In this document: one piece after another, positions 47,184 to 48,236 of the stretch
How positions within the stretch are numbered: position 1 is the first letter of the stretch
Layout of the letters: each line of letters starts with the position of its first letter
Assembly: GCF_900141815.1 (NCBI RefSeq)
Contig: NZ_FQYR01000003.1
Location: 868,001-932,000 of the forward strand
Length of the DNA stretch: 64,000 bases
Reading direction: 5' to 3'
From: Rubritalea squalenifaciens DSM 18772
Lineage (GTDB): Bacteria; Verrucomicrobiota; Verrucomicrobiia; Verrucomicrobiales; Akkermansiaceae
Position numbers and translations under genes: made by a program
The notes under the pieces: model-generated
What the model saw: only the letters and a program-made list of their open reading frames with translations
What the model was told of the DNA's origin: nothing
Databases searched by the model: none

Positions 47184-48236
47184 ATGAGCCGCGAAGACAT
47201 TAAAAGACTCACCACCATGGCATCCTGCGGTGGATGAGCCTCCAAACTAGATCCAGCGTCACTCTCGCAGGTTCTGCGTGGATTGCCGCAATATCCAGAC
47301 CCGAACTTACTCGTAGGCTCATCTACAGCCGACGATGCAGGCGTCTATCGCCTGAATGACGAAACCTCTCTAGTTCAGACCCTAGATTTCTTCACCCCCA
47401 TCGTGGACGACCCCTACCTGTTCGGCCGAATCGCAGCCACCAACTCCCTATCAGACGTATACGCCATGGGTGGACGCCCCATCACCGCCATGGCCATCGC
47501 CGGCATGCCGGATGATCTACTCAGCAATGAAGACATTGCAGAGGTCTTTCGCGGAGGAGCTGACATGGTGGCAGAAGCACAGTGCTCACTGGTAGGCGGC
47601 CACACCATCAAAAATCCGCAACCCATCTACGGACTCTCGGTGACAGGCCTCGTACACACGGAGAACTTCCTAGCCAATGCCCACTGCAAACCTGGTGATA
47701 CCCTCATACTCACCAAGCCACTCGGCACAGGAATCATCAGCACAGCCGTCAAGAGAGGCATCTGCCCAGACGAACTACAGGAACTCGCCATTCAGGCCAT
47801 GACAACACTTAACCGATCGGGAGCCACCCTTGCCGACAAGAAGCTGGTCAACGGCTGCACTGACATCACCGGTTTCGGCTTCCTGGGCCACCTGGCAGAA
47901 ATGATGAAGGGCTCCAATACCAGCGCTGAAATCGACACCAACTCAGTCCCAGCCCTATCCCCACTGGTCATGAAGTTCATCGAAGAGGATTGCGTGCCGG
48001 GTGGCAGCAAGAAAAACCTCCTCAATATTGCTCCCTCGGTAAACTTCGGGGACAACATCTCAGAAGCCGTCAAACTCCTCATGGCTGACGCCCAGACATC
48101 TGGCGGCCTACTGCTCTCCGTCCCTCCTGAAAATGAGGCCGAGACTCTAGATATTTTGGCTAATTCTGAGGCTCTCTGCGTCAGTATCGTAGGCCAAGTC
48201 ACCAATAAACAAGCGCATGATATCTTCTGCAGCTAG
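47184..48236 (+). CDS. selD: Selenide, water dikinase, selenocysteine-containing (in-frame UGA)
   Basis: SelD makes selenophosphate from selenide and ATP, the selenium donor for selenocysteine. The frame usually visible begins at TTG 47283 and lacks the active site. Reading upstream in the same frame gives ATG 47184, then LTTMASCGG, a TGA at 47235-47237 (residue 18), ASKLDPASLSQVLRGLP and the rest, for 350 residues. The TGA falls exactly where family members have the catalytic Cys or Sec (CGGC/CGGU-A-x-K). A hairpin with GCAGGTTCTGC lies 28-41 bases after it. Later motifs: DFFTPIVDDPYLFGRIAA, NSLSDVYAMGG, LVGGHTIKNPQPIYGLSVTG, GTGIISTAVKRG, TDITGFGFLGHLAEM. ATG 47217 is an alternative start. 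Confidence 0.93.
47238..47284 (+). promoter_or_regulatory. Bacterial SECIS-like element in selD
   Basis: Directly after the UGA: outer stem GATCCA (47250-47255) / TGGATT (47279-47284, one G-U) and apical hairpin CGCAG-GTT-CTGCG (47266-47278). The apical part resembles the E. coli fdhF SECIS tip, where SelB binds a GCAGGUCUGC hairpin. The loop is 33 bases past the UGA, within the usual bacterial range. Structure drawn by hand. Confidence 0.65.

Follow-up and report, generated by a model that had tools for sequence, protein, structure and literature searches.

A selenophosphate synthetase gene of Rubritalea squalenifaciens with a predicted selenocysteine codon and a covarying bacterial SECIS hairpin

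The window analyzed here, 64,000 nucleotides of Rubritalea squalenifaciens DSM 18772 (NZ_FQYR01000003.1, positions 868,001 to 932,000), almost certainly carries a functional selD gene in which the UGA at codon 18 is predicted to be decoded as selenocysteine (Sec). This reading follows from the conservation of the UGA, from a covarying in-frame hairpin, and from the presence of selA, selB, and selC in the genome. The gene, which encodes selenophosphate synthetase (selenide, water dikinase), is complete at 47184–48236 of the forward strand; translated with the TGA as Sec it yields 350 amino acids, ends in a TAG stop, and contains a single in-frame TGA, that of codon 18 (47235–47237). The initial annotation had pointed to an ATG 99 nt (33 codons) before the first apparent start, the TTG at 47283–47285, and the list of open reading frames bears this out. 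The ATG (47184–47186) is preceded by an in-frame TAA three codons upstream, and methionine is found at this position in 37 of 45 distinct genes. The TTG, which lies downstream of the TGA, is a false start: the mechanically called frame that begins there is 317 aa long and loses the catalytic residue among its 33 missing codons.

The assignment to SelD rests on comparisons with profiles and with known SelD sequences. TIGR00476 covers residues 8–317 with 384.5 bits, well above the equivalog cut-off of 125, and the Pfam domains AIRS and AIRS_C are also matched. The protein is homologous over almost its whole length to the SelD proteins of Escherichia coli (3u0o; E=2.4e-81) and Aquifex aeolicus (2yye and 2zod; E=3.4e-61). 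Because the TIGR00476 alignment begins at profile position 1, the part N-terminal to the TGA is genuine SelD sequence, as the initial annotation had supposed when it judged the flanking text too SelD-like to be accidental. In the N-terminal alignment the TGA codon falls on Cys17 of E. coli SelD and Lys21 on Lys20, so that the catalytic Sec and the lysine that follows it both lie in the N-terminal loop. The TGA thus replaces the active-site cysteine codon within the exact motif SCGG-U-ASK; where E. coli has cysteine at the catalytic position in GCGCK, the R. squalenifaciens protein has GUASK. The claim that known Sec-containing SelD proteins carry the residue exactly here agrees with a 2015 reference set, in which Sec occurs in 19% of SelD proteins, always at the same position (PMC4561486).

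The UGA is widely shared among relatives. The search for selD in the family was confined to a sample of 145 genomes, and a selD piece with TGA at the Sec18 site was found in 64 of them. Fifty-six loci were read in detail; some represent the same gene from two collections, and over a stretch of 63 nt they reduce to 42 different sequences. TGA stands at the position of codon 18 in each of the 56 loci. Named carriers of a TGA-bearing selD include an uncultured Rubritalea sp., Persicirhabdus sediminis, Roseibacillus persicicus, and other Verrucomicrobiales MAGs. The sole clear full-length homologue without TGA in the family sample, that of genome G101, encodes cysteine (TGC). Beyond the family, Sec-SelD was also present in 12 sampled genes from other families of the class. 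Eight more distant SelD relatives have TGC or TGT at the site. One genome, G185, was matched twice (G185:C176, G185:C88), by a Sec-SelD and by a second SelD homologue that lacks the TGA and lies in an open frame of 548 aa; the latter is possibly of the Ndh-SelD fusion type.

Directly downstream of the UGA, as in other bacterial Sec-SelD genes, lies a candidate bacterial SECIS hairpin, TCGCAG-GTT-CTGCGT (47265–47279, forward strand), marked by covariation, synonymous constraint, spacing, and absence from Cys-encoding homologues. It begins 28 nt after the UGA and presents its apical loop GUU (47271–47273) after a spacer of 33 nt. The bSECISearch model, as restated in PMC13188914, specifies a loop of 3–9 nt, a stem of 4–16 bp, a spacer of 16–37 nt, and a G within the first two loop positions. 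With its 3-nt loop in which G is followed by U, its stem of at least 5 bp, and its 33-nt spacer, the selD hairpin fits this consensus (PMC13188914), and none of its features falls outside the model. Folded alone, the hairpin of the window, which has a U-U mismatch as its sixth pair, is not unusually stable (z of −0.79, or −1.2 against synonymous-codon shuffles). For this reason, comparative evidence was used.

Across the 42 distinct sequences, pairing is maintained in 95.9% of cells, and in five of the seven stem pairs both partners have changed, for the most part through synonymous substitutions. None of 500 shuffles matches this comparative pairing, and structures slid along the alignment also remain far below it. 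The synonymous ratio, computed in 5-codon windows, drops to 0.09 at codon 28 against a median of 0.95. Moreover, the codons of Gln29 (CAA or CAG) and Leu31 (TTG or CTG) covary, occurring as CAG..CTG or as CAA..TTG; because both changes are synonymous, selection on the protein does not explain their joint occurrence. Eight or nine of nine pairs are formed in the 12 Sec-SelD genes of other families, whereas only three to six are formed in the eight Cys-SelD genes (p about 2e-7 for all Sec versus Cys SelDs, a value that ignores kinship). A Cys-SelD with a decayed hairpin is found in G152 (L129, G152:C13); since the other sampled members of its family, G330, G184, and G362, keep Sec, this gene probably represents a recent reversion from Sec to Cys.

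The initial annotation had reasoned that selA, selB, and tRNA-Sec should exist elsewhere in the genome, and a genome search located all three, each above its curated cut-off: selA at C3:89129-90478 (506.8 bits), selB, of 635 aa, at C8:69072-70961 (300.1 bits), and selC, the tRNA-Sec with anticodon TCA, at C4:705828-705918. The tRNA score of 50.8 bits exceeds the gathering score of 47 by a slight margin, and ARAGORN likewise reports a tRNA-SeC. The absence of selB and selC, which would have spoken against Sec, was thus not seen. A selenouridine synthase gene, mnmH/ybbB, is also present above its curated score (C3:506538-507449). These genes are scattered and form no operon with selD. Of the 145 family genomes, 59 have both Sec-SelD and selA, 5 have Sec-SelD only, 6 have selA only, and 75 have neither; the association is strong (Fisher p about 2e-27, kinship among genomes ignored), and several of the mismatched genomes are incomplete assemblies. 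The hairpin, mnmH/ybbB, and the CxxU motif described below are points that the initial annotation did not raise. The features expected of a bacterial selenoprotein gene are therefore found together, namely a UGA at the position of the homologues' cysteine, a hairpin of the bSECIS type, and selA, selB, and selC in the genome.

That the UGA might instead specify a residue other than Sec, Trp or Cys for example, through suppression or a changed code is formally possible, the inserted residue being predicted from sequence; this is nevertheless very improbable, given that dacA in the same window terminates with UGA, that selA, selB, and selC are present alongside a covarying SECIS-type hairpin, and that UGA alternates with TGC or TGT, the hairpin being missing where cysteine is encoded. 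An open frame of 317 aa starting at the TTG does exist, and the TGA could on that basis be a real stop with the upstream text a remnant. The product would, however, lack both the catalytic Cys/Sec and Lys21, and the catalytic Cys and the Lys of the N-terminal loop are required by E. coli SelD. The 17 upstream codons and the TGA are, moreover, kept in all 56 loci, and the hairpin covaries, which makes a remnant exceedingly unlikely. A sequencing or assembly error of TGT or TGC, for which nothing speaks except the single base of difference, is refuted by the relatives and has practically no probability left, because the same TGA recurs in dozens of independent assemblies from the family and from other families of the class, and its presence in 56 of 56 loci rules out chance as well.

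With selD thus read as a Sec-encoding gene, established pathways suggest how it would be expressed and used. SelB carrying Sec-tRNA-Sec would bind the hairpin at 47265–47279, and Sec would be inserted at the UGA. SelD would then convert selenide and ATP to selenophosphate, with Sec18 acting in a mobile N-terminal loop together with Lys21. Selenophosphate would pass through SelA to Sec-tRNA, and from there into SelD itself and other selenoproteins; it would also be used by MnmH/YbbB to form 2-selenouridine in tRNA. Since the selenophosphate made by SelD would be needed for SelD's own Sec, the enzyme would depend on its own product.

The Sec residue is part of a CxxU motif, Cys15-Gly-Gly-Sec18 (47226–47237, forward strand). 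Cys15 is present in 44 of 45 distinct genes, and the corresponding cysteine in 11 of the 12 Sec-SelDs from other families of the class; L041 (G052) and L126 (G184) lack it, having AAGU and SAGU, respectively. In the marine GOS data the motif was reported for only about 5.6% of the Sec-SelDs with a single domain (PMC2398784), whereas nearly all members of the present lineage sample have it. CxxU is therefore a mildly unusual trait that is nearly universal among the Sec-SelDs sampled in this lineage. The Cys15/Sec18 pair could conceivably make SelD redox-switchable, oxidation producing a selenenylsulfide and pausing selenophosphate synthesis until reduction, although we regard this as rather unlikely. 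L041 and L126 offer natural tests of whether the CxxU cysteine matters.

The expectation that more selenoproteins are hidden in this genome was also upheld, as at least two further candidate genes with TGA and a hairpin were found. One, L103 (minus strand of G000:C2:31500-35500, gene at about 33.3–33.7 kb), is TlpA/AhpC-TSA-like and reads FWGYWUGPC; the loop of its hairpin, GAGC-GGUC-GCUC, lies 31 nt after the UGA, and these 12 nt are identical in four related genes (L105–L108). The other, L104 (plus strand of G000:C5:225000-229000, gene at about 226.7 kb), is peroxiredoxin-like and reads GHWUPFC; its hairpin loop follows the UGA by 20 nt, and a compensatory change from C-G to U-A is seen in L115. 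Both families resemble the UxxC thioredoxin-like and peroxiredoxin-like selenoproteins of marine metagenomes (PMC2398784). SelD has been proposed as the lone selenoprotein of some mnmH-bearing species (PMC1794560); for the present genome, these two candidates led us to reject that possibility. The FdhA-like proteins of the genome have no TGA, and a search of the same genome for SelW-like and AhpD-like (PF02627) selenoproteins found none. A search for GrdB/PrdB gave no match anywhere, control genomes included, and is for this reason uninformative. When the window was scanned for frames in which an in-frame TGA stands next to C, S, or T, 60 frames resulted, and inspection by eye of the 25 longest revealed no redox or SelD text other than that of selD. 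Genus relatives have Rdx/SelW-like genes (L087–L092) that contain a single in-frame TGA or two, and such genes are absent from the genome of the window; those with two TGAs perhaps carry two Sec residues.

Selenocysteine-containing SelD proteins have long been known, from Haemophilus influenzae and Clostridia to the eukaryotic SPS2/SEPHS2. The bacterial proteins and SPS2/SEPHS2 share with the present SelD the UGA at the same active-site position and the same fold family. Among prokaryotic selenoproteins, only one is more widespread than Sec-SelD (PMC13188914). The Sec-SelD of the window is accordingly an ordinary one and changes no general picture; no description of Sec-SelD in Rubritalea was found in a partial literature search. 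For the organism, the result means that the Sec trait and the selenouridine trait are used side by side in the Rubritalea genome. Gene finding with the standard code would shorten selD (by at least 50 codons where only standard stops are allowed) and at least two redox genes. For the family, the data constitute a clean comparative set, with Sec genes that have the hairpin and Cys genes that do not, for the study of Sec/Cys exchange.
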